This document shows positions 41,235 through 52,410 of a stretch of 64,000 nt of DNA, piece after piece; position 1 is the first letter of the stretch, and each line of letters starts with the position of its first letter. The notes below the pieces were generated by a model. That model ran no database searches and was not told the origin of the DNA. It saw nothing but the letters and a program-made list of their open reading frames with translations. The stretch comes from Flavobacterium sp. CG_23.5. Its GTDB lineage: Bacteria > Bacteroidota > Bacteroidia > Flavobacteriales > Flavobacteriaceae. The DNA is taken from NCBI RefSeq assembly GCF_017875765.1, contig NZ_JAGGNA010000001.1, forward strand, positions 124,001 through 188,000. The letters run 5' to 3'. Both the position numbers and the translations under genes were made by a program.

Positions 41235-41846
41235 TTATTGTTTAATTAGTTCAACGGGTGCGATTTCCAACTCAACAATAACTTCATTTTTACGATTAAT
41301 AACTTCAAAAGGGGGATTGTATCCCAAAAAGTAAAATCGGTTTGTGTATTTTATTCCCTCGGCATCCAAAGCTGCCTTCAATTTCTCTTTATATTTTTCT
41401 ATTTTTTCAGCATTTGCCCAACCGCCAAAGGTAATGGCAGCAACAGTTTTTGCCGGTTCCTCGCGAAACTCTATTCGCGATTGGTTAGGCTGTGGAAGGG
41501 TTTCTTTTTTGAATTTTTTGGGAACCATAAACATAACCGTCATGGAATCTTCCAAGGACATGGCTACAGGTGAAGTCATCGCTATTTTTTCATTCTTTTC
41601 ATTTCCACCAAAAATGTATCCGGCTAAAATTGAGAACCCTTTGCTGGACGCCTCTTTATAATCTTTAGTAGAGAGTTTGACAGAAGAAAACAAAGTTGCT
41701 TCGTAGTTACGGATTTCAAATGTGTCGTACTTTTTATTGACTACATATGGATAGGATTCAATATTTTTTTGCTCGTTCATGGCGTATAATTGAACGATGA
41801 TAAAGGCTACAACGATTACTCCGAGTGAAATTAATAGTATTTTCAT
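41235..41846 (-). CDS. SOUL-family heme-binding-like protein
   Basis: 203 aa with an N-terminal membrane anchor (ILLISLGVIVVAFIIVQLYA). The SOUL domain follows: NIESYPYVVNKKYDTFEIRNYEATLFSSV, FSILAGYIFGGNEKNEKIAMTSPVAM, TVMFMVPKKF, and YFLGYNPPFEVINRKNEVIVEL. Heme binding is known for some animal relatives; bacterial members are mostly uncharacterised, so function is tentative. Confidence 0.92.
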   Translation of the reverse strand: MKILLISLGVIVVAFIIVQLYAMNEQKNIESYPYVVNKKYDTFEIRNYEATLFSSVKLSTKDYKEASSKGFSILAGYIFGGNEKNEKIAMTSPVAMSLEDSMTVMFMVPKKFKKETLPQPNQSRIEFREEPAKTVAAITFGGWANAEKIEKYKEKLKAALDAEGIKYTNRFYFLGYNPPFEVINRKNEVIVELEIAPVELIKQ

Positions 41847-42324
41847 TATTTGGATTTAGGGTTATGGCTATTGTATTTTTAATTTCACCAACATTCACGG
41901 GCTATAAGCCCTTGGGGTGATTGTAGCAGTTTATTCGCTACCGCATTGTTGAAAGTTATGAAAAAAATGTATCCTATTTACCAAAAAGAAGAAGTCAATT
42001 AAAGATTGTATTGAAAGTATAGCTTTATTGATTACCATAATCTTGTCAATTTTTTTCGAAAAATCCTATGGCGTGGATTTGCAATCCTAGTCCAATACCA
42101 GTTTTTTTTCATTAGGATAATAATCTTTGTAACTGTTTTAGCTTTAAATTTATTGGTCCTTTACAGTTTTTTTATTGATTCTCTTTGCAATCCTAGAATG
42201 CAATTTCCCCATTGATATTAGTCAAAAAGCAACTTCCTTATTCGGTTATTTAACAGTGAAGCTTATAATTTGTACTAGAAAATGAACAAAATAGAGCTCA
42301 ATATGCTTTATAACAGTATGCCAT
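41847..42324. other. Intergenic region with palindromic fragments, no gene
   Basis: AT-rich, with no coding frame I can support. It contains GGGCtataAGCCC (~41898-41910) and two copies of TTTGCAATCCTAG (~42079 and ~42186), as in other dispersed intergenic repeats. Confidence 0.4.
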
Positions 42325-42352
42325 AAAAAAAAGAGGATATCAAACCCTCTTG
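42325..42352 (-). terminator. Terminator downstream of the TPR gene
   Basis: AGAGGATAT...CCCTCT hairpin followed by TTTTTTTT on the minus strand. A near copy lies at 47733-47760, so it is part of the dispersed repeat. Confidence 0.7.
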
Positions 42353-42364
42353 AAATCCTTCAAA

Positions 42365-42520
42365 TATTTTTACGATAATTCCATAGGAATGGACTCATGA
42401 TTGGTTCCTGCCTTCTCGCCGTGACGGGTTCAACAAAGATATCATTACTTCTTCCATTTGCGATTGCTTGGGTTTTGGTTCGCCGCGGTCAAAGTAACGA
42501 AGCCTTAACTTTTTTGCGAC
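42365..42520. repeat. Dispersed hairpin repeat, copy 1 (3' of the TPR gene)
   Basis: Shares TTACGATAATTCCATAGG (42370-42388) with the copies near 47770 and 49987. It also shares TTGGTTCG...AACGAAGCCTTAACT (42474-42510) with the copy at 44278. Confidence 0.6.
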
Positions 42521-42535
42521 TTTTTTTTTTGATTT

Positions 42536-43912
42536 TCAGCGCCCTATTTGTTCAATTACTTTTTTCGCAGCGGCTAATCTTATTTTGTTGTTTTTTTCGA
42601 TTAGTTTTTCTGTTATCCAATGTTCCAATTTATGGTGCAACGGAATCAAAAGTGAAGCGATTAAAACCATTATGGACAACATGAGTATTGGAGAATGATG
42701 AACCAATCCGCCAAGGTACGGATGAAGAAGTAAATTGATGAATTCAAAGATAATTAACAAAGATAAGATTCCCAAAAAACGTATTGTTGCCTTATTGGCA
42801 AACTTCGAATGGCTAAAGATTAGGAAAGTTATCACAAAAAGAATTAGTGTTACAGCAATTGCCGAATATTGAAGATTGTGGGCACGTTCCTCTGCCAATC
42901 GTACTTTTTCTTCAGCGACTTCTATTTTTTGGAGGCGATCCTCAAATAAGAGGTTTTGGATTTCTGATTCCTCTTTGTTATTTTGGATAGTATCTTTGAT
43001 AGTCATGGCCATCCGTAAATATTTTAAACAGCTATCGGACTGTTTCAATTGATTGTAAGAATCAGAAAGAACTATTGCAGCCTTTTGGGTTTGATGAAGA
43101 AATTTGTGTTTTCCTATCGAAATTGCTTTCTGTGCATAAACTATACTTGAATCGGTCTGCTTTTGGTTAAAATACAAAGTTGCTAATGAAAGATAATTAA
43201 AACATAACCATCTGTATTGTTCTCTCTCCGTGGCAGTCGCTACGCCAAGGCGGTAATATTCCAACGCTAATGGAATATTATTTAATTTCGACTGCAAATC
43301 CCCTAATCGGTTATAAATAATAGAAATTTGATCGCTTTTAACTCTAAGGCTTTGCTGATAAGCATCTTGAAGGTATTTTATTGCCAAGTCTGTTTGCCCT
43401 GTTTCAAGATAGCAGATACCTAACGTTGAAATTATATTGCTACCAGACAACTTTTTTTCTTCTAAAAGTTTCTTTGCCAGTAATAAGGTTGCAATCGCAC
43501 CATTGTAATTTCCTTGTCTCCTGTAAATATTTCCAATATTATTATAGGCACTGAGGATACCATTATTGTCATTTAATTTCTCAGCTAATTGTTGTCCTTG
43601 CAATGAAATTTTTAATCCCCTGGAATAATTGCCGGTAACAAATAATGCAAAACCTAATTTATTTAGGCTTTGCATTTCATAATATAAAGATTTAATTTTT
43701 TTTGATTCGAGAAGCGCTTCTTCTGCAAAATCAATTGATTTGGTAGGGTTTATATTTGTATTTTCAGAGGAAGCTTTAATTAACGATACTATATTTGTAG
43801 TGTATTCCTTGTTAAAAGATAACGTATTCTCAATTTCTTTGACATCTTTTGATTGTCCAAAGCTATTTCCTACTGAAATTAAAATCAGTAGCAGGTGGAG
43901 AATGTTTCGCAT
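42536..43912 (-). CDS. TPR-repeat protein with C-terminal membrane region
   Basis: 458 aa with a signal peptide (residues 1-19, cut after SFG-QS). Tetratricopeptide-like helices fill ~35-310 (for example GILSAYNNIGNIYRRQGNYNGA). A coiled coil at ~315-345 (EVAEEKVRLAEERAHNLQ) is followed by 3-4 TM segments (~350-430) and a short basic tail. The layout equals flavobacterial TPR sensor kinases but stops before any HisKA or LytTR-type output domain. It is therefore either a truncated sensor or a family lacking output. Last gene of the cassette-like run; a weak TATATTTA box lies at 44038-44045 (minus strand). Confidence 0.82.
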   Translation of the reverse strand: MRNILHLLLILISVGNSFGQSKDVKEIENTLSFNKEYTTNIVSLIKASSENTNINPTKSIDFAEEALLESKKIKSLYYEMQSLNKLGFALFVTGNYSRGLKISLQGQQLAEKLNDNNGILSAYNNIGNIYRRQGNYNGAIATLLLAKKLLEEKKLSGSNIISTLGICYLETGQTDLAIKYLQDAYQQSLRVKSDQISIIYNRLGDLQSKLNNIPLALEYYRLGVATATEREQYRWLCFNYLSLATLYFNQKQTDSSIVYAQKAISIGKHKFLHQTQKAAIVLSDSYNQLKQSDSCLKYLRMAMTIKDTIQNNKEESEIQNLLFEDRLQKIEVAEEKVRLAEERAHNLQYSAIAVTLILFVITFLIFSHSKFANKATIRFLGILSLLIIFEFINLLLHPYLGGLVHHSPILMLSIMVLIASLLIPLHHKLEHWITEKLIEKNNKIRLAAAKKVIEQIGR

Positions 43913-44277
43913 AGGGTGAATTTAGTTCTAATATAATATTAATTACTCGGTTCTCGAAAATATCACACAACTTGGCTTCGTTCGATAGCTATCAGACTAA
44001 AAACCCCAAAAAGGTCTTTTTAGAACTTACTTTAACGTAAATATAGTTGATTTGTAGTGTAAAAGAAAGTCTCTTTACAAAAATACTCTTAATGATTTTT
44101 TAATTATTTTAAGTGGCAAAGAGGCTTTAAAAATATTTTCATAAAGTTGAACGAATAGACTAACGCTTGTAGATCTTATTAAAAATCTTTTTGACCAATC
44201 AAGTTGAATATTCTCTTATGATAGTTGACTGTACTAAACAAATTCAATAGGGCAAATATAGAATCGTTCAGTAGCTA
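43913..44277. other. Spacer without a gene
   Basis: AT-rich spacer between the TPR and DUF4386 genes. It holds a possible -7 box for the TPR gene (TATATTTA, minus strand 44038-44045) and nothing else recognisable. Confidence 0.4.
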
Positions 44278-44336
44278 TTGCTTAGGTGTTGGTTCGACGT
44301 TGCGAACGCGACGAAGCCTTAACTGTTAGCGGTTCG
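44278..44336. repeat. Dispersed hairpin repeat, copy 2 (3' of the DUF4386 gene)
   Basis: TTGCTTAGGTGTTGGTTCG, then GTTGCGAACGCGACGAAGCC and TTAACTGTTAGCGG. GGTTCG can pair with CGAAGCC leaving one bulged G. It is homologous to copy 1 and starts 28 bp past the gene stop. Confidence 0.65.
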
Positions 44337-44363
44337 GACTTTTTTCTGTTTATAAGTACAATC

Positions 44364-45068
44364 TTAAATTTCATTCGGTATTTTATGTTTTGAAGTGTCT
44401 AAACCTTTTATTAGTAACCACAAGCAAAAAGACAATTCACCAATAAAAATCGGAATTGCAAGATATAGAAAAATTGGGTTTTCAAAACCTTTGGAAAGAA
44501 ACATTGTAAAGCTATTTATCAAGTAGCATAAACCTGAAAGTGCATAAAGTATTCCAAATATTTTTGGTAAAAAGTTTGATTTGAAAAGTACATAACCAAT
44601 TATTAAACAATAAAATCCAAAGAATACCAAACCAATAGCATAACCTTGGGCTTGAATTTTTAACGACAACAACGAAAGTGTTGCAAGTTGATTTGGTTGA
44701 AAAGTGTTTAGGTACGGATCATTGCCCAAAATCAGAAGCGGTGAAATTTGATTGAGCAGATTGACAGCAATTATGGCGGTTTGGATAATTACAAAAGCTA
44801 ACGCAAGTTGTACTAATAATTTATTTACTCGCTTGAAAATATGATAAATTATTAATATCGTTGGCAAACCTATTACAAAATTGAAAAGGTCCGAAGCAAA
44901 ACCCCAACGAAATAACATTCCATGTGCTTTTATGTTTTGTGCAGTCGCTAACGCATCGGTAGAAACTGTTAATGCCTGCCTTACAAAAACTTCGGAAAAC
45001 AATCCTGTTGCAATTACTAGTAAGTAACAAAAACCTGCAATACGAGCTAATTTTTTATCTGAAATCAT
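44364..45068 (-). CDS. DUF4386 family membrane protein
   Basis: 234 aa with six hydrophobic segments. KLARIAGFCYLLVIATGLFSEVFVRQAL, HGMLFRWGFASDLFNFVIGLPTILIIYHIFKRVNK and FLPKIFGILYALSGLCYLINSF match the DUF4386 family common in Bacteroidota and Firmicutes. The function is unknown. It stands alone, with ~270 bp upstream and a hairpin repeat 28 bp downstream, consistent with a cassette-like unit. Confidence 0.92.
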   Translation of the reverse strand: MISDKKLARIAGFCYLLVIATGLFSEVFVRQALTVSTDALATAQNIKAHGMLFRWGFASDLFNFVIGLPTILIIYHIFKRVNKLLVQLALAFVIIQTAIIAVNLLNQISPLLILGNDPYLNTFQPNQLATLSLLSLKIQAQGYAIGLVFFGFYCLIIGYVLFKSNFLPKIFGILYALSGLCYLINSFTMFLSKGFENPIFLYLAIPIFIGELSFCLWLLIKGLDTSKHKIPNEI

Positions 45069-45336
45069 TTTATGTAGTTTTTTTTCGGAGTAATTTTGAT
45101 TTTAACTTGCCATATGTTTTTTTGCTTCGCAATGTTGAGAATTTTTAAACAGCGTTTTTTCTTCCCAAACGAAGATATGAAGTAAAACATAATTTCAGTA
45201 CAACCTCAAACTTGTAAAACTGCTGTCGCTCAATCGTACTTATTATTACTTTTTTATTACTACACAATTCAAATCTTTCAACTATTTTGTTTTCAAATAT
45301 TCTATAGTGTGAAGTTTAGTTTATTTTCTGCGATGT

Positions 45337-45531
45337 TTATTTAATCTTTTGAACTGTATTATAGTTTCTTAAAGCTACCGCCAAAATTAAAAGTCCGAGG
45401 CCTATTCCCAAAAACAAACCTTTTGTCAAATCAGTTAATTCCACAAAACGTGAAAACACTTGAGAAGTTGCAATTATAAACATTCCACTAGACATTAAAA
45501 TAAGCGAATTCCTTTTTGTTAGTTTTTTCAT
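45337..45531 (-). CDS. Small two-TM membrane protein, unknown
   Basis: 64 aa with a basic start MKKLTKRNSL, TM1 ILMSSGMFIIATSQVF, TM2 GLFLGIGLGLLILAVAL and a short basic tail. The size and composition are plausible for a real small protein, but no family was recognised. It is isolated between large spacers in the cassette-like region. Confidence 0.6.
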   Translation of the reverse strand: MKKLTKRNSLILMSSGMFIIATSQVFSRFVELTDLTKGLFLGIGLGLLILAVALRNYNTVQKIK

Positions 45532-45583
45532 TTGTTCTCTATTTAATTATTTGATACTACCCGTTAGCTGTAACTATTCAAAA

Positions 45584-45716
45584 CGTCAGTTCGAGTATTT
45601 TTTGTGTAATGAAATGAAACAAAAAATGTATCGAGAACCGATTTTAATAACAATTTTTCTTGTTCTCGATACATTTTTCTTCCCGAGGCTTTGGGAGAAA
45701 ATCACTCGAACTGACG
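45584..45716. repeat. Nested long inverted repeat (flavobacterial interspersed element)
   Basis: Outer arms are CGTCAGTTCGAGT (45584-45596) and ACTCGAACTGACG (45704-45716). Inner arms are AAAAATGTATCGAGAAC (~45622-45638) and GTTCTCGATACATTTTT (45662-45678). The whole ~133 bp can fold into one stem. It is noncoding and of a type I associate with dispersed repeats in flavobacterial genomes. Confidence 0.75.
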
Positions 45717-45752
45717 AAAAATTATCATCAAAAACTAATTACACTCAATGGA

Positions 45753-46357
45753 TTAATACTATCTTTTAGTGAGTCTTCAAATTTTGTTATTTGTTACATT
45801 TCTTCTTACATTCTATGTTTTTCGCTAGTATGATGGAAACCGTCCGGCTCTTTGAGATGGTGTGTACTTCGCAACCGGTAATTTTTCGAAATGGTAATAT
45901 CACTAAATAACACAATAGATCAAAACGGATGATACACTATGTTATTTTTCTATTGAAGTTACCGTTGTCTTATTGAATGTTAAAACAAACTTATTACCTG
46001 CATTTTAAATATCAAAGATTGTTGCTAAAGTCATTAAGATTATAGCTGTTATTAAAATGAATATTGAAAGAAAGGAGTGTGATTTTATTGACAACTTTTC
46101 CAAATACCATATTTTAAGATTAACACCAAGCAGTACGATTGTTAAAATAAGTAAAGGGATTGTTACTAACTCGAATATTGCACTAAAAAAATTATGTAGA
46201 ACAATATGTTTAAATGATATGTATATTACACTTGCAAAATAAAATAAACAAGTACTACTCAAAATTAGATTTCCGTTTCTATTCATAATTGTGTTTTATT
46301 ATTTAATCAGCTAATATGGGCGGCATCGGGAACACACCCACGACATTAAAACTGCTA
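45753..46357 (-). repeat. Duplicated cassette-like unit, copy 1
   Basis: Near-identical to 48741-49367, covering the 93-aa gene, its ~250-bp 3' spacer and its ~70-bp 5' leader. Similarity stops abruptly at TTAATACTATC on the left and ACTGCTA on the right. Copy 2 has a ~24-bp insertion in the spacer. Confidence 0.9.
46005..46286 (-). CDS. Small membrane protein, unknown (paralogue of 49013-49294)
   Basis: 93 aa with three hydrophobic segments (LILSSTCLFYFASVIYISF, AIFELVTIPLLILTIVLLGV, SFLSIFILITAIILMTLATI). It differs from its paralogue at about 8 positions, mostly conservative, which supports both being translated. No family was recognised. The gene, leader and spacer are duplicated as a block. 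Confidence 0.72.
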   Translation of the reverse strand: MNRNGNLILSSTCLFYFASVIYISFKHIVLHNFFSAIFELVTIPLLILTIVLLGVNLKIWYLEKLSIKSHSFLSIFILITAIILMTLATIFDI

Positions 46358-46437
46358 ATACAGCGGTTCCGTTTAACCGCGGCTTCATTGTTGGCTTTGC
46401 AAGCCCAACGAAGCCTTAGCTTTTGGCGGTAGGTTTT
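46311..46437. repeat. Dispersed hairpin repeat, copy 3 (3' of the hydrolase gene)
   Basis: It contains GCGGTT-ccgttt-AACCGC (~46363-46380) and a hairpin GGCTTC...GAAGCC with inner GTTGG...CCAAC (46381-46415). CTTAGCTTTTGGCGG follows. It begins right at the hydrolase stop and is related to the copies at 44278 and 47780. Confidence 0.7.
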
Positions 46438-47464
46438 AATTTTCTAAAAAAATTTTTATTTCATTCAAATATATTTCAGGTTGTTCAACAAAAATTTCAT
46501 GACCAGCACTTGGAATAATTTTTAATTTGTGATTCGTGAACAAGTCAAGATATTCCTTGGTATAGCCCCAATTTATATTGTCATATTGTCCTTTCAAAAC
46601 TAAAATAGGAATTTTTGATTTTTTAAGATTTATTCTTGGGTCGGTTAATTTACCATAACTTACGCTTGTGTTTAAATTGCTGTAACATCCAGCACCACCT
46701 TCCTCCGCTATGGCTTTTGATGAATCATAAACAAGTCCTTTTGTAAATACAGTTGCCAACTTAGTTAGATAACTATCAGCTTCTTTGTCAGAAGCTAATT
46801 TTGTACCGAAAAAACGAGCCCAAATACTAATTGAAATATATCTTGGATTAAGAGCAAAAGCAATAGCTTTTGCATTTGGGTTATAAGGTTCTTTTAATTG
46901 TAAACTATCTGGCGATTTTACTTTTTCTAATTCATCGTTTACTGGTTTTATTGCACCAGGACAAGTAAAAATTAATTTATCAGTTTTATCCAAGTTGTCT
47001 GCCGCAATTAATACTGCCAAAGCTCCACCCCATGATTGCCCAATAAGAATTACTTTTTTTGCTCCCAATAGATTTACAATTTCTTCAAGGTCTTTTTTAT
47101 GACGGTTTGCAGTATATTCTTTTACTTTTTCTAATCTACCCGAGAGTCCAGAACCAATTTGGTCATATAAGTAGACATCATATCCTAATTCTGAAAGTTT
47201 ACCAAGAATTTCAATATTTTTTGTATAAACATAACCACCCGGTCCACCATGTAAGTAAATAATTGGGGAAGTTTTTTTCGTTCCTTTCCCTTCAATCATT
47301 GTGTATGCTATTTTTGAACCAGAGGGTAAATTCCAATATTGAGTTGTTACTCTTTGTTTCATTTGAGGAACGTCTAACTTAGTTGGAATGCATCCTTTTA
47401 CTATAAATATTATCAATAATATTAGTAATAGCCATTTTGTGATTTTAAAAATCTTTTTTTTCAT
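46436..47464 (-). CDS. Alpha/beta hydrolase, prolyl iminopeptidase-like
   Basis: 342 aa with an N-terminal hydrophobic anchor or lipoprotein-like signal (WLLLILLIIFIVKGC). It has the oxyanion motif YLHGGPGGYVY (~75), nucleophile elbow LIGQSWGGALAVLIA (Ser ~143), ILVLKGQYDNIN (Asp area) and SAGHEIFVEQPEIYL (His ~320). This is the S33/proline-iminopeptidase branch; the true substrate is unknown. A TATATTTG box lies at 47545-47552 (minus strand), about 80 bp upstream, so it carries its own promoter, and a hairpin repeat follows the stop. Confidence 0.92.
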   Translation of the reverse strand: MKKKIFKITKWLLLILLIIFIVKGCIPTKLDVPQMKQRVTTQYWNLPSGSKIAYTMIEGKGTKKTSPIIYLHGGPGGYVYTKNIEILGKLSELGYDVYLYDQIGSGLSGRLEKVKEYTANRHKKDLEEIVNLLGAKKVILIGQSWGGALAVLIAADNLDKTDKLIFTCPGAIKPVNDELEKVKSPDSLQLKEPYNPNAKAIAFALNPRYISISIWARFFGTKLASDKEADSYLTKLATVFTKGLVYDSSKAIAEEGGAGCYSNLNTSVSYGKLTDPRINLKKSKIPILVLKGQYDNINWGYTKEYLDLFTNHKLKIIPSAGHEIFVEQPEIYLNEIKIFLEN

Positions 47465-47732
47465 TTTTTATGTATTGATGTCTCTAGTCTTTTGTAAACT
47501 TACCGCCAACGTCAGTCTGTGAAAAAACCTTCGTTTATTTCTTCCAAATATAGAAATTTATGTCACAAAAAGGAAGAAAAGTTTTATATTTAAAGATGCA
47601 ACACATAACGGGAATCTCGCGCCAACAGTTACAAATAAGTAGTTCCCTTTAAGCTGAATTACAGTAATTGGTAAGAGCAGCTATGCCCAAAGGTGAAGGA
47701 AAACACGATAAAACCAGATCGATTATCACCCC
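47465..47732. other. Spacer upstream of the hydrolase gene
   Basis: No gene is present. It contains the hydrolase -7 box and, on the minus strand, TAACTGTTGGCGCG and CCCGTTATGTGTTG (~47615-47640), which recall cassette-boundary sequence but are not diagnostic. CGTCAGTCTGTGAAAAAAC (47511-47529) resembles half of the RAYT-associated REP element. Confidence 0.45.
47545..47552 (-). promoter_or_regulatory. -7 promoter box for the alpha/beta hydrolase gene
   Basis: TATATTTG on the minus strand matches TAnnTTTG exactly. Confidence 0.5.
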
Positions 47733-47862
47733 AAAAAAAAGAGGATATCAAATCCTCTTAATTATTTTACGATAACCCCATAGGGCTGGAAGTAAAGCGG
47801 TTCCGTTCAACCGCGAGTTCATTGTTCGTCTTTCAGACGCAACGAAGCCTCAGCTGTTAGTG
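47733..47862. repeat. Dispersed hairpin repeat, copy 4, with terminator (3' of the DinB gene)
   Basis: From the DinB stop on the minus strand: CACTAACAGCTGAGGCTTCG, hairpin CGTCT-gaa-AGACG, hairpin GCGGTT/AACCGC, CCTATGGGGTTATCG, then terminator AGAGGATTTGATATCCTCT plus T8 (47733-47760). It shares blocks with copies 1 and 3. Confidence 0.7.
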
Positions 47863-48408
47863 GATAGTGTTATTTTGCATTAGTTCCATAATCTCTTTGG
47901 CTTGTTCAAAATGTCTTTGCTCGTGCGAAATAATAATGTCAAATGCGGTTTCCAATTTGTAAACTATATTTTTGTTTGCAGGGGATGAAATTATTGTCCC
48001 CGTTTCAATCAATTCTTTTGACGATTCAATTTGTCGTTTCAATTCACTTTGATGCCTTTCAAATCGGCTCAATATTGCTCCGTCTATTTCGCTTCCAGTT
48101 GGCTCCCAAATCGGGAATGTCTTCATCCTCTTCTTTCTGTCTGGTTTTACAGCATTGAGAATCGTTTTTCCCAAAAATGAAACCATAAAACCAATTTTCG
48201 ATATGAACGGGGTTTTATATGTTCCTTCTTTTAAAGCGATCAAAACGGGATAATAGGTCTCATTAACAACTATTATATGGTCAATATTTTGGGCAATACT
48301 CCACGTATTGGAATTAGGTCTCCAATTCAACTGTTCGCTTGAAAGTATCCCAAATTTTGAGATTGCTTGTTCAGTTATATTATCCAATTCAGTTGTCCAT
48401 TTTTTCAT
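47857..48408 (-). CDS. DinB-family protein
   Basis: 183 aa, soluble four-helix bundle pattern. LNWRPNSNTWSIAQNIDHIIVVNETYYPVL supplies the first metal histidine (DHI), and the C-terminal IISHEQRHFEQAKEIMELM supplies the other two (HEQRH). These match the DinB/YfiT metal-binding scaffold. Members are putative thiol-dependent transferases or stress proteins; the specific activity is unknown. A hairpin repeat with terminator lies directly after the stop. Confidence 0.9.
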   Translation of the reverse strand: MKKWTTELDNITEQAISKFGILSSEQLNWRPNSNTWSIAQNIDHIIVVNETYYPVLIALKEGTYKTPFISKIGFMVSFLGKTILNAVKPDRKKRMKTFPIWEPTGSEIDGAILSRFERHQSELKRQIESSKELIETGTIISSPANKNIVYKLETAFDIIISHEQRHFEQAKEIMELMQNNTIH

Positions 48409-48740
48409 TGTCCTAAATTATTTAAATTTTGTCAAAATTAAGTTCAATTTCTACACTTGTTACTAACGTCAGTCTCTGAATAAACTCAAAAAGAGCCTCT
48501 GAGAACAGGCTGTATGAAATTTTTCTCCTACAAGTGTCCGAATAGTTTCTCTTTTTGACTTAGTTTTTTCACAGCCGGACGTTTCGTCGCTTTGCGAGGT
48601 TGCGAACTTCGTAACCGAATATTTTCTGTTACTTCTAAATTTCTTGCGAAATATAAACATGAATTTAGAACTTAATTCGCTTTTTTGTCAAACGCCTGTT
48701 ACCTGCTGGCCTTCTGTATACTGTGTCGTTGTATGCCTTG
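48409..48740. other. Spacer upstream of the DinB gene with repeat fragments
   Basis: No reliable gene. It contains GTCAGTCTCTGAATAAACTC (48470-48489) and an AAAAAGAGCCTCTGAGAACAGGCTG segment (48487-48511), fragments of dispersed palindromic repeats. At 48689-48740 the minus strand reads TAACAAGGCATACAACG...CAGGTAACAGGCG, which could be a cassette-boundary remnant. Confidence 0.45.
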
Positions 48741-49367
48741 TTAATACTATCTTTTAGTGATTCTTCAGATTTTGTTATTTGTTACATTTCTTCTTATATT
48801 CTATGTTTTTCGCGAGTATGATGCAAACCGTTTGGCTCTTTGAGATGGTGTGTGCTTCGCAACCGGTAATTTTTCGAGTGAACGTAAATTGAATGCGAAG
48901 CGGTAATATCACTAAATCACGCAATAGATCAAAACGAATGATACACTATGTTATTTTTCTATTGAAGTTACAGTGTCTTATTGAATGTTAAAACAAACTT
49001 ATTACCTGCATTTTAAATATCAAAGATTGTTGCTAAACTCATTAAGATTATAGCTGTTATTAAAATTAATATTGAAAGAAAGGAGGTTGATTTTATTGAC
49101 AACTTTTCCAAATACCATATTTTAAGATTAACACCAAGCATTACAATTGTTAAAATAAGTAAAGGGATAGTTACTAACTCGAATATTGCACTAAAAAAGT
49201 TATGCAGAAAAATATGTTTAAATGATATGTATATTAAAATTGCAAAATAAAATAAACAAGTGCTACTCAATATTAGATTTACATTTCTATTCATAATTGT
49301 GTTTTATTATTTAATCAGCGCTAATATGGGCGGCATCGGGAAGACACCCACGACATTAAAACTGCTA
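48741..49367 (-). repeat. Duplicated cassette-like unit, copy 2
   Basis: Second copy of 45753-46357 with scattered substitutions, a ~24-bp insertion at ~48878-48901 and a 2-bp difference near 49319. It includes the second 93-aa gene. Confidence 0.9.
49013..49294 (-). CDS. Small membrane protein, unknown (paralogue of 46005-46286)
   Basis: 93 aa, three hydrophobic segments, near-identical to the 46005-46286 product with about 8 substitutions. Conserved leader and spacer show block duplication rather than independent gain. Function unknown. Confidence 0.72.
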   Translation of the reverse strand: MNRNVNLILSSTCLFYFAILIYISFKHIFLHNFFSAIFELVTIPLLILTIVMLGVNLKIWYLEKLSIKSTSFLSILILITAIILMSLATIFDI

Positions 49368-49382
49368 GTAGGGCAGTTCTCT

Positions 49383-49865
49383 TTAATAATGTGGCACTAA
49401 TTTTTGAATCATTTTTTGGCCAGAAATGAAAACTACCTCAATTAAAATATTCTTTGCACTATCAGCGAATATCTTGATGTTTACTAAATCCTTTTCCTCA
49501 TTAAAATATATGGTTGTATTTGTATTTTCTAATTTTGAATGAAAACGAAATTTTGGATTAATTTCACTCGCATATTTATGGAATTTATCATCAGTGATTC
49601 GAGCCGTTTGATTTTTTATAGTAATTAGTTTCGCGATGTTTTTATCATCAAAGACAAACGTTATTGTATCAGTTTTTTTATTAAGAATTTTACTTTCTTC
49701 CAAGAACTCGCCCTGTTTTTGTGAACTTAAAATTCTTCCTTTATATTTTTTGTCAATGACCTCTCTACTAAAATTTATTTGTGAATACAGTGTTGAAAAT
49801 GAAAAAAAACAAAAAAGTATAATGGAATAGTTCAAATTTTCGAAACCAATATTTTTTTTGCTCAT
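49383..49865 (-). CDS. Secreted protein of unknown function
   Basis: 160 aa from the ATG giving MSKKNIGFENLNY; a TTG three codons upstream would extend it slightly. The N-terminus YSIILFCFFSFSTLYSQ is an export signal. The mature part is beta-strand-rich and charged (DTITFVFDDKNIAKLITIKNQ, IYFNEEKDLVNIKIFADS) with no cysteines. No family was recognised. The fused spacer to the duplicated 93-aa unit begins 15 bp after its stop. Confidence 0.65.
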   Translation of the reverse strand: MSKKNIGFENLNYSIILFCFFSFSTLYSQINFSREVIDKKYKGRILSSQKQGEFLEESKILNKKTDTITFVFDDKNIAKLITIKNQTARITDDKFHKYASEINPKFRFHSKLENTNTTIYFNEEKDLVNIKIFADSAKNILIEVVFISGQKMIQKLVPHY

Positions 49866-49874
49866 AATTTTCAA

Positions 49875-50035
49875 TTTGTTGAGTTTATCACATCTGCTTT
49901 CTAACTACTGTTAATGCTTCTCAGCATCGTATTGTAGGCAATTTGTTAGCAGAATATTTTCGGCTAAACGAATATATGAAAATAAACGATAATTCCACTA
50001 AATTCCAGCCAGCTCAAGATGGCTGTTGTGAGTAA
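49875..50035. repeat. Spacer with dispersed hairpin repeat, copy 5
   Basis: On the minus strand after the 50036 stop: CAGCCA-tcttgagc-TGGCTG hairpin, then GGAATTATCGTTTA, matching the GGAATTATCGTAAA block of copy 1. Further on, GCTAACAAATTGCCTACAA ... GATGCTGAGAAGCATT ... GTTAGAAAGC has weak end symmetry (GCTAAC/GTTAG). Confidence 0.55.
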
Positions 50036-50779
50036 TTATTTATACTTTCTTTTTATTTCGATTATAAGTTTTTCGGCAATCTCTTTATTCATTTGGTTTG
50101 TTACCTTTTCAGCTATTTTCTTTAATTTCGTTTCATTAAAATCATTTACCTCCTTTTCCACTTTATCCAAAAGGTCGCAGAAAAATAAGGAAGGACTATC
50201 AATTATTCTTTCGTAAAACCTATCTAATGACTCAAATTGTTGAATTGAACTATTCTTAAATTCCGCAATTTCCATTATGCTTTTGTCAGAACTTTGAGTT
50301 GAATGTTTTAGTGAATTGTTAACCAGTCTTAATTCATTTACTTCTACGTAATCATTAAGTTCTTTTACTGAAATATTCCTTTTCTTTAAAAAATCAATCA
50401 TTTCGTGCCATTTCGGATTAGCATTAGGTAACTCGTTATAGAAATGAAATATCAATTTTTTTGTGTTTATTTCAAGGTGTTTGAATGCATAGATAATTTT
50501 CATTTCTAACAATGCAATTAGCTCGTCTTCTGCATAAAGCGCTGACTCAATATGTTCTCGCATTTGGATTTGAAGTGAATGACCAGTATGGTTAGCTATT
50601 TCATCAATTTCATTATACTTTTCTGGGTCAGTCGATTCTAATCCTAACCAATATTCAAAATCGGAATATTCCCTATCTCTTTCCTTTTTTAATTCTGTAA
50701 TTATTTCATTTACAGGTCTATCAAGTTTATTGATAGATTGATTTAAAATTTCTTGAATATTTTTTGGAATTTCATTCAT
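50036..50779 (-). CDS. Uncharacterised all-alpha protein, possibly HEPN-like
   Basis: 247 aa, soluble, highly charged, almost entirely helical. The central region WHEMIDFLKKRNISVKELNDYVEVNELRLVNNSLKHS resembles the helix carrying the Arg...His pair of some HEPN/abortive-infection-type proteins. The spacing here (R then seven residues then H) is looser than the classic Rx4-6H, so this is a weak lead. The C-terminus is a coiled coil (KVEKEVNDFNETKLKKIAEKV). A TATATTTG box at 50828-50835 (minus strand) lies about 50 bp upstream. It is the first gene of the cassette-like run. Confidence 0.65.
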   Translation of the reverse strand: MNEIPKNIQEILNQSINKLDRPVNEIITELKKERDREYSDFEYWLGLESTDPEKYNEIDEIANHTGHSLQIQMREHIESALYAEDELIALLEMKIIYAFKHLEINTKKLIFHFYNELPNANPKWHEMIDFLKKRNISVKELNDYVEVNELRLVNNSLKHSTQSSDKSIMEIAEFKNSSIQQFESLDRFYERIIDSPSLFFCDLLDKVEKEVNDFNETKLKKIAEKVTNQMNKEIAEKLIIEIKRKYK

Positions 50780-50827
50780 TTGAATAAAGTCGTATTTTTA
50801 TAATTACTCACGATTTGTCTATAACAT

Positions 50828-50835
50828 CAAATATA
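50828..50835 (-). promoter_or_regulatory. -7 promoter box at the head of the accessory gene run
   Basis: TATATTTG on the minus strand matches TAnnTTTG exactly, 49 bp upstream of the 50779 start. Confidence 0.5.
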
Positions 50836-51059
50836 TACATCTTTTTGAATGTTTTACTTAAGTTGTTCAGTATTTTCTTATTATTTTCATCTACGAAGCA
50901 ATCTAGTGGGGTTGCTAGCTTACAGGTTTGCGTTTTTGAAAAATGGGAGTAGCTGGTGTTGGTTTTACGACTAGTGTATCCTAATTACTCTTGTATAAAA
51001 TGAATATTTCAGCCATTTGTCAAGAAGTGGGTTGCAAACCTGCTTGCAGGAAGGAATGA
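50836..51059. other. Intergenic region, no gene
   Basis: AT-rich stretch upstream of the 50779 gene. GGGTTGCAAACCTGCTTGCAGG (51029-51050) has short inverted symmetry. Nothing else could be supported. Confidence 0.4.
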
Positions 51060-51258
51060 CTATGTTTTAAGCTGTTCTCGTAATGATTTGTGAATTCCAG
51101 CTTTTGCAAATCCGTTTTTAAAAAGCTGTTGCGCGGTTCTGGAACTGTATTGCCCACCATATTGTATTTCAAAAAGATATTTTCGAGGTTTATACGTGGT
51201 GAAATAAGTCTTAACTACGTCAAGATACTTTCCGGTAAATGAGAAGACGATTTTTCTT
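51060..51258 (-). pseudogene. Tyrosine recombinase (phage/XerD-type integrase) C-terminal fragment
   Basis: On the minus strand an open frame reads GKYLDVVKTYFTTYKPRKYL, FEIQYGGQYSSRTAQQLFKN and GFAKAGIHKSLREQLKT-stop. This corresponds to the segment of tyrosine recombinases just before the HTLRHSFATH box (pattern YKPKEYLFEGQ, GQYSxRSIQQIFKxALKKAGI). The LRHS motif, the second His/Trp and the catalytic Tyr are missing, and upstream the frame is closed by stops, so it cannot be active. It has the same orientation as the neighbouring cassette-like genes. Confidence 0.85.
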
Positions 51259-51261
51259 TCC

Positions 51262-51405
51262 TATTTTTAGCCCAGATAGCAGTGGAAAGCATTTTATCAA
51301 AAAAGGCTGAATTTTGTTGTCCTAAAAAAGCGACCAACGGAAGCTATTTTTAGGGCTTACAAAATGGCCTTTTTTGATGAAATCTTGTAGCGAATAGCTG
51401 GAAAA
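51262..51405. repeat. Nested long palindrome between the recombinase relic and the YeiH gene
   Basis: ATCAAAAAAGGC (51296-51307) pairs with GCCTTTTTTGAT (51367-51378). Inside, CCTAAAAAAGC (51321-51331) pairs with GCTATTTTTAGG (51343-51354). Looser complementarity extends outward, giving a ~140-bp imperfect hairpin. It may be a dispersed element or the terminator of the YeiH gene. Confidence 0.65.
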
Positions 51406-51432
51406 GCTACCAGAAAATAATATGTTTATACC

Positions 51433-52410
51433 TTACAGTAATGAAAGTATTGCCCATAAAGCGACGGCGGAAATGAGGAACCAAAGCACAACTCCTTGAA
51501 GTAGGGGTTTGTATCCCACGGAAAGCAAGACTTTTCTAGACAACCCGCAACCAATGAGAAATAGGGTTACCGTCAATCCTGCTTTGGCTAATCCGGTTAA
51601 ATACGAACTGTATTTTTGTACAATTGGAAGATAGGTATTTGCAATCATGGCTAAAACGAACAAGCCGATGAAGTAGGGGATTTTGATTTTGGTGCCTTTA
51701 TTTTTAAAAAATACCGTCGCTAAAAATGCCACGGGAATAATCCATAATGCTCTTGCCAATTTTACTGTTGCGGCTACTTCCAAGGCATGCGGACCGTATT
51801 TACTTGCTGCTCCCACCACGGAACTCGTGTCGTGAATGGCAATGGCGCACCACATTCCAAATTGCGTTTGAGATAAATGTAAAGCGTGACCGATCACTGG
51901 AAACAGTATTAAAGCAATTGAATTGAGGATGAAAATAGTGCCTAAGGCTACCGAAATTTGTTTTTCTTCGGCTTTTATCACCGGCGAAATAGCAGCAATG
52001 GCACTTCCGCCACAAATGGCTGTTCCTGCCGAAATCAAAAAGGAGGTTTTCTTCTCTATTTTTAAAAACTTGCCCATTAAAAATCCAATGAGTAATGTGC
52101 CAATAATTGAGGCAATTGTAAAAAGGATTCCTTCTTTTCCGGCTTTCATTGCGCTGGTTACATTCATCCCAAAACCCAGTCCTACAACGGAAACCTGTAA
52201 TAAAATATGGGTGGCTTTATGGTTTAAATGTAAATACGGATGGCCTATAAATTGTGCAATAATCAATCCCATCAATAACGCAATGGGTGGCGTAATGAAC
52301 GGGGACAAACACAAAACAAATGCCAAAAGAAAAATGACTTCTTGCGTGGAAATCCTTTTGAAAAACAGGTTTTTTGTGAGGAGATTATGCATTTTAGATT
52401 CGGTTTTCAT
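51433..52410 (-). CDS. YeiH/UPF0324 family putative anion (sulfate) exporter
   Basis: 325 aa with about ten TM segments. Conserved stretches include SVVGLGFGMNVTSAMKAGKEG, LISAGTAICGGSAIAAISPVIKAEEKQISVALGTIF, MWCAIAIHDTSSVVGAASKYGPHALEVAATVKLARALWIIPV and TLFLIGCGLSR. These define the UPF0324/YeiH family (Cons_hypoth698), of which some members are thought to export sulfate or sulfite. No sulfur-metabolism genes adjoin it here, so the substrate stays open. Confidence 0.92.
   Translation of the reverse strand: MKTESKMHNLLTKNLFFKRISTQEVIFLLAFVLCLSPFITPPIALLMGLIIAQFIGHPYLHLNHKATHILLQVSVVGLGFGMNVTSAMKAGKEGILFTIASIIGTLLIGFLMGKFLKIEKKTSFLISAGTAICGGSAIAAISPVIKAEEKQISVALGTIFILNSIALILFPVIGHALHLSQTQFGMWCAIAIHDTSSVVGAASKYGPHALEVAATVKLARALWIIPVAFLATVFFKNKGTKIKIPYFIGLFVLAMIANTYLPIVQKYSSYLTGLAKAGLTVTLFLIGCGLSRKVLLSVGYKPLLQGVVLWFLISAVALWAILSLL

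Follow-up and report, generated by a model that had tools for sequence, protein, structure and literature searches.

We analyzed a 64-kb window of the 3.67-Mb single-contig genome of Flavobacterium sp. CG_23.5 (bases 124001-188000; "the window" denotes this whole stretch, and its positions are counted from its first base), in which a run of small genes is flanked by a SOUL gene (41235-41846) on one side and by a YeiH-like gene (51433-52410; PF03601) on the other. The sequence of this run is best explained by a degenerate, integron-like array of cassettes. We consider it very probable that it is the decayed form of an array that, when intact, is run by an IntI-related tyrosine recombinase acting at attI- and attC-like sites. 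This recombinase is patchless, i.e., it is without the ~40-residue IntI insertion (I2, or patch).

Intact arrays beside a patchless recombinase

Following a pattern from the window spacers, we located a further array at 1.28-1.30 Mb of the genome. There, a 347-amino-acid (aa) tyrosine recombinase (gene at 1281766-1282806) is followed, ~100 nt past its stop codon, by the junction ...ATACTAG|TTATCAGC. The end box of the first cassette reads ATGCTGATAAC, and the cassette start is its reverse complement. Further cassettes of this array show start/end complementarity as well. The intact layout consists of the tyrosine recombinase gene, an attI-like junction just 3' of it, and then cassettes with attC-like hairpins of ~118 nt between them. 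Each cassette opens at G|TT with at least 9 bases that are reverse-complementary to its own end box (...AAC). The 1.28-Mb array is bounded at its far end by another tyrosine recombinase, which is decayed and lies on the opposite strand (L045 2030-2630).

In integrons, the site is restored on a free circle by joining both ends of a single cassette. We propose that the recombinase would act at the attI-like junction 3' of its own gene and at the attC-like sites at the cassette ends, with strand exchange at G|TT, and that a cassette freed as a circle would restore its site by joining its own start and end, which would explain why the start after G|TT mirrors the end box. Expression may come from a TAnnTTTG-like box before attI, such as the one seen by eye between the recombinase stop codon and attI in several aligned loci.

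The generality of this layout was assessed with a strict junction test, which required 9 exact bases, an A at position 11 not opposite T, and an end box followed by A. In the order sample of 148 genomes, 37 (the host included) carry the recombinase at E 1e-60, and the loci of 20 of the other 36 were fetched. Directly 3' of the recombinase, 14 of these 21 loci (host plus 20 fetched) passed. Among named genomes, the best 80 of 588 loci were scanned, and a space of 800 nt or more was available at 69 of them. Of these 69, 19 passed, compared with 3/72 on the 5' side and 1/69 on the reversed downstream sequence. Passing loci include those of Flavobacterium aciduliphilum, Algoriphagus ornithinivorans, Winogradskyella ursingii, Seonamhaeicola aphaedonensis, and Zunongwangia mangrovi. 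By sequence, intact relatives have an attI-like junction beside the recombinase with a cassette joined at G|TT, an arrangement that is missing from the window, where the recombinase is broken. We note separately that in a metagenome-assembled genome (MAG) labelled Spirochaetota (L220), the recombinase is accompanied by a first cassette bearing the complete signature, possibly through a binning error.

Longer runs were scored as cassette chains, again at 9 exact bases and against 20 block shuffles per locus; since the signature is self-complementary, the reverse strand was unusable as a control. The chains of L087, L088, L092, L093, and L085 reached 9, 7, 7, 7, and 5, respectively, compared with block-shuffle maxima of 4, 3, 3, 5, and 2. 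The largest array seen is that of genome G192, in which a recombinase 78% identical to the host's adjoins an attI-like junction and 37 matches to the site model fall within 80 kb, all 37 on the recombinase strand. This array (L272-L274, C1:195-243 kb) is ~46 kb long, holds several cassette starts two to four times, and is superintegron-like; near its far end lie two more recombinase relatives (34% identity).

The sites themselves were searched for with R1, an attC-like covariance model trained on sites outside the window. Arrays seem common: 107 of 121 congeneric genomes have R1 matches at E 0.001 (27 candidates were scored per genome, so that site numbers are lower bounds). Three of six other genomes also have matches. 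R1 matches number 20 in the host genome at E 0.1, four of them being training sites. AttC-like sites or clusters away from the intact recombinase were also observed in the host genome, at C1:3281776-3287295, 1162880-1166290, 1505529-1506565, 301062, 550740, 2333725, and 2849031. Among the cassette cargo are restriction-modification genes and a gene for an ATPase that resembles phage-defence families.

The attC-like site and its predicted fold

To describe the site, we aligned 37 of 41 sites extracted from loci outside the window. All share AACA, one invariant stem A, and CGTT. The stem of the attC-like site covaries: all 17 pairs vary on both sides, 87.1% of cells are paired, and the covariation is 0.778 compared with 0.171 in shuffled alignments and 0.09-0.14 with the partner slid, values that are somewhat favoured by taking the structure from the same alignment. 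In 54 cassettes from 10 loci, bases beyond those used for selection gave a second view of the pairing, in which positions 12-14 pair with the cassette's own end box in 87, 89, and 72% of cases compared with 48, 38, and 45% when shuffled; positions 15 and 16 show no excess pairing in these cassettes. These counts come from related, not independent, sequences and are not probabilities.

Position 11 is A in all 54 cassettes and is paired in none. The L-arm stem likewise carries an A in 37/37 sites, opposite which stands C (32 sites), G (4), or T (1); the A positions of the two arms would correspond by dyad. A base conserved as unpaired means something only in a folded single strand, and single-strand recombination is therefore favoured. 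The most likely substrate of the recombinase is the attC-like site in its folded, single-stranded form, where one unpaired, dyad-related A per arm may guide binding like the extrahelical bases of classical attC. Alternatively, the sites could be used as double-stranded, inverted core sites in the manner of Xer, the hairpins being only dyad symmetry or by-products. This is a possibility to which we give appreciable, though clearly minor, weight: the recombinase is without the IntI insertion and is near XerA, but the unpaired A of both arms (paired in 0/54 and 1/37) exists only in the folded strand.

The window array, its decay and its mobile elements

The sequence-only reading had proposed an integron-like cassette architecture for the window and an attC covariance search as its check. 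Run with R1, this search found one full-length attC-like site at 48569-48707 (minus strand, as are all window features below unless stated; R'' box end at 48698), with 52.9 bits and an E value of 1.7e-8 over the whole genome; in a DNA search of 121 genomes, the match 48701-48579 recurs in many congeners. Together with two cassettes showing start/end complementarity, this genome-wide significant site supports the proposed architecture. That reading had further left a choice between divergent sites and another recombinase, and both fit, given that the sites are non-classical and that intact arrays lie 3' of a patchless recombinase.

The first of the two cassettes is that of an alpha/beta hydrolase (46422-47510; gene 46436-47464), which starts with G|TTGGCGGTA at 47510 and ends with the box TACCGCCAA(A) at 46422. 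Its start is complementary to its own end box at 12 of 13 positions, with 0 of 100 shuffles as good. The second (50025-50814) carries a 247-aa gene (50036-50779) without a Pfam or PADLOC family match; its start at 50814, where G|TT has decayed, is complementary to the end box at 50025 at 11 of 13 positions (2/100 shuffles as good). For the DinB-like cassette gene (47857-48408), with a start G|TTAGTAAC at 48467 and an end box CCACTAAC at 47856, 9 of 13 positions agree at the expected junction, which is not significant, as 75/100 shuffles are equal somewhere. Two further genes are each followed by an end box and then an A-type hairpin block (described below), without a significant matching start: the DUF4386 gene (44364-45068; end box AACCGCTAAC at 44325) and the TPR gene (42536-43912; end box at 42511). 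Altogether, two of the six end boxes tested have a matching start in the expected place, the DinB box is non-significant, and three have none; R''/R' boxes with complementary cassette ends are found in intact arrays and, in the window, for 2/6 boxes.

R1 gave three further, borderline matches, with E values for 139 kb: a decayed attC-like site after the 247-aa gene (49918-50034; 22.8 bits, E 0.007), another inside the duplicated block described below (48819-48949; 23.3 bits, E 0.005), and a possible one after the 64-aa gene (45108-45234; 21.3 bits, E 0.015). All three are absent from the whole-genome R1 search at E 0.1. At the 5' end of the array, a tyrosine recombinase fragment of the patchless, non-IntI family (50901-51269) matches Phage_integrase (PF00589) at genome positions 174934-175269, i.e., window 50934-51269, with 5 stops, and TIGR02249 at match positions 240-313; stops included, it is 36% identical over 117 columns to the intact recombinase of the 1.28-Mb array (L044). 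The decayed recombinase that had been noticed there is therefore real. With one significant site, two paired cassettes, and the other boxes unmatched, the window array is decayed.

Several other claims made from the sequence also held. Between 42536 and 50779, we find the nine same-strand genes as nine open reading frames (ORFs) of 64-458 aa. Four have Pfam matches above cut-off (TPR, DUF4386, alpha/beta hydrolase, and DinB_2), and a 93-aa ORF has one below it. The gene-plus-spacer block said to occur twice does so, at 45753-46376 (copy A; 93-aa gene 46005-46286) and 48741-49386 (copy B; 93-aa gene 49013-49294 plus spacer), with 90.9% identity over 647 columns. The remaining ORFs are a 163-aa gene (49383-49874), with no downstream site recognised, and the 64-aa gene (45337-45531). 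Two claims stood in part. A TAnnTTTG box does lie within 180 nt upstream of 4 of the 9 genes, a weak point given an expectation of ~0.16 per 180 nt, or ~1.4 of 9. The spacers do share related repeats, in that AGGCTTCGTYG (one mismatch allowed) lies 3' of the TPR, DUF4386, hydrolase, and DinB genes and has 4 matches in the 64-kb window compared with 0.63 expected from shuffles; the shared hairpin is probably largely an IS91-family end rather than attC. Folds of single spacers gave z values of -2.2 and -2.0 for two of six and of -1.0 to +1.2 for the remaining four.

These A-type hairpin blocks lie directly after an end box. The block after the hydrolase (46366-46421, limits approximate) is 90% identical over 52 nt to a cassette-end block of L045. 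In L139 and L080, the A-type block faces a piece of an IS91-family transposase, and the A-type hairpins are therefore read as probable ends of IS91-type elements. Among the 18 A-type matches listed, 10 have an upstream cassette start with at most one mismatch, one of these being probably spurious. We had entertained the A-type hairpin as the attC site of the window and the start of the duplicated block (46376/49386) as a G|TT junction; these two readings were dropped or weakened, as TTRAACGGAACCGC recurs within the A block, pieces of IS91 transposases face that block in L139 and L080, and the main site type differs. Between the DinB end box and the next cassette start lies an A-B unit (47510-47855) with likeness to L139, L080, and L144, composed of a probable IS91-type end, a terminator-like hairpin, a TATATTTG box, and an IS1182-type right end.

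A second kind of element occupies the full-length site, at whose putative crossover point lies a 115-bp miniature inverted-repeat transposable element (MITE) with IS1182-type terminal repeats (48467-48581). A similar MITE (90% identity over 120 nt) lies at an attC-like junction in L124 (1501-1616), and IS1182-family elements of 1725 and 1773 bp lie at attC-like crossovers in L143 and L080, the L143 transposase scoring 332.7 bits. In these four insertions, the left side is the site end, and the right side is TT plus the cassette start in three and TC in L080. This suggests that an insertion sequence (IS) targets attC-like sites. Since the recombinase gene is broken, most sites are decayed, and several are occupied by remnants of IS1182 type and probably of IS91 type, the window array is probably frozen, and IS invasion may explain why.

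Two further sequences adjoin or interrupt the array. At its 5' border (51265-51408, plus strand) lies a Flavo-1 RNA (RF01705, 50.9 bits), sequences similar to which are dispersed in congeners; it is the single match above the gathering score in an Rfam scan of the window, which gave no attC-like match. A long-hairpin dispersed repeat (45559-45756), present in many congeners, has short exact stretches in common with the region upstream of the L044 recombinase.

The comparison with other genomes, with one genome per species in the set, bears on whether the window is instead a block of accessory genes that is stable, is strewn with IS remnants, and has only an accidental likeness to an array. Such a block would accommodate the probable IS91-type ends, the dispersed repeat, and the four of six end boxes without a significant start. 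It would leave the significant attC-like site, the hydrolase signature, and the recombinase fragment to chance, and next to the same SOUL gene different cassettes are found elsewhere. Specifically, among four stretches with the SOUL flank, G344 and G435 hold arrays with different genes, sites of 81.9, 92.1, and 54.3 bits, and exact start/end pairs; G344 carries an ATPase gene resembling defence ATPases and a 286-aa gene. We therefore regard the stable-block explanation as highly improbable. Nine stretches with the YeiH-like flank had none of the remaining window genes, a comparison that is uninformative, and a DNA search of 121 genomes with the whole block gave, among the matches listed, single genes, single sites, and dispersed repeats, with no second copy of the array.

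Several results weigh against reading the window as a decayed array of this kind. The evidence is computational, and no recombination has been observed. In the window, four of the six end boxes are without a significant matching start, and a single site reaches significance over the whole genome. At the SOUL gene of G374 (L138), there is no site and no strict pair, with one weak A-type match; at that of G166 (L141), there are two weak sites (26.5 and 25.5 bits), again without a strict pair. Among the five measures of stem covariation, one, the count of pair types, does not exceed its shuffles (44 compared with 43.0). The chain of L044 is barely above shuffles (5 compared with 4); those of L080 (5 compared with 6), L082, and L083 (4 compared with 4 each) are not above them, and neither are the chains of most remaining loci. 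In genomes G128 and G087, sites occur without a recombinase match at E 1e-60. The strict test failed in 7 of 21 loci (L083, L084, L089, L090, L091, L093, and L097) and in 50 of the 69 named-genome loci, many of which are distant relatives and many in other phyla; therefore, not every homolog of the recombinase runs an array.

Relation to IntI integrons and other known systems

Protein comparisons place the recombinase close to IntI and outside it. Against NCBIfam models, the host recombinase scores 202 bits for the integron integrase TIGR02249 (cut-off 265) and 213.7 for NF040815 (cut-off 220), for which three relatives are above cut-off. TIGR02249 aligns to it at 1-177 and 239-315 only, and against an IntI of known structure (2a3v), 22 recombinase residues stand opposite 64. 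In the alignment, the IntI insertion is present in 19/19 readable IntI of the phylum and in 0/21 relatives (L173, badly read, was excluded); the additional I2 domain of IntI is thus absent here. In the tree, IntI form one group (100/100), with the relatives on one side of a weak branch (72/48), and IntI plus relatives are split from two Xer proteins (98/93, with a midpoint root and long Xer branches). The best named relatives include proteins of F. aciduliphilum (62% identity) and a Flavobacterium MAG (66%). The structure predicted for the former (mean predicted local distance difference test score 86.4, predicted template modeling score 0.62) is closest to 2a3v, then XerA, and has an extra N-terminal strand-strand-helix-strand-strand domain; such a domain, of ~60-75 aa, is found in many relatives.

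The arrays might nonetheless be conventional IntI integrons, or what remains of them, their IntI having been lost or lying elsewhere and the patchless recombinase being a bystander. True IntI is present above cut-off in 84 of 296 genomes of the phylum (one in the same class, the others in the same phylum), and some IntI arrays, taken as a positive control at 9 bases, show the same G|TT signature: L184, L188, and L183 reach 11, 6, and 6 compared with shuffle maxima of 2, 3, and 3, L179 and L180 reach 5 compared with 3 each, and the rest of the 12 are little or not above shuffles. R1-type sites occur in 4 of 12 IntI carriers. In one of these, G544, an array with such sites (L186 963-5384) is separated by 4 kb from a true IntI, and neither L186 nor the 20 kb on the other side showed a patchless recombinase, which also counts against the part we assign to that recombinase. 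Against the bystander explanation, the host genome has no IntI above cut-off, and the conserved attI-like junction immediately follows the patchless recombinase on its 3' side. Moreover, 8/12 IntI carriers have no R1-type sites, and the fetched stretches of two of the four with sites, G544 and G750, hold a patchless recombinase, that of G544 being ~140 kb from the array near IntI; none was seen in the fetched stretch of G707. We judge it quite improbable that these are IntI arrays and retain the view that the patchless recombinase runs them.

IntegronFinder 2.0 lists a single complete integron within Bacteroidetes proper, that of Salinibacter, in addition to those in Chlorobi and Ignavibacteriae (PMC9024848), and reviews count Bacteroidota among the integron-bearing phyla (PMC8618304, PMC9668308). 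An earlier survey retained only patch-bearing integrases (PMC2426708). Given the single complete integron in the IntegronFinder 2.0 listing, the arrays described here look like a large overlooked branch. Among the titles and abstract openings listed in searches of the open PMC library, none describes patchless cassette arrays; the name of NF040815 (site-specific tyrosine recombinase/integron integrase) mentions an integron integrase, and the relation at the protein level has therefore not escaped annotators. Work on IntI evolution presents the I2 domain as necessary for cassette capture and as giving single-strand recombination, and missing intermediates as a limit on studies of integron origin (PMC7790495). 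A natural cassette system with an I2-less recombinase makes the question of the need for I2, and of integron origins, testable.

On balance, we lean toward a widespread second integron lineage in Bacteroidota, whose recombinase never had or has lost I2 and would recombine folded, single-stranded hairpins in another way, guided by one unpaired A per arm and perhaps by the N-terminal domain; it would represent a missing relative between Xer and IntI. The locus works like an integron in this proposal, but we do not class it with IntI integrons, since the domain that defines them was looked for and is absent.

With IntI integrons, these arrays share an integrase gene with an adjacent attI, tandem cassettes (up to 37 sites here), the G|TT junction, the ...AAC and GTT boxes, and a predicted folded attC-like site of ~120 nt. 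Unlike in IntI integrons, the recombinase is without the IntI insertion, has an extra N-terminal domain in many members, and is transcribed toward the array, and each site arm has an unpaired A. XerA/XerC/XerD and NF040815 are the closest family models, the host recombinase being 6 bits below the NF040815 cut-off. Xer dif modules are flanked by 28-bp XerC/XerD sites; the system described here, in contrast to XerA/XerC/XerD and NF040815, has an adjacent attI-like junction and cassette arrays. Clusters of attC sites lacking integrases (CALIN) are defined by at least two attC sites less than 4 kb apart without an integrase. The window, with one strong and three borderline matches to R1 rather than to the published attC model, and several clusters of the genome resemble CALIN in having sites without an intact recombinase seen adjoining, and they differ from CALIN in their non-classical site type.

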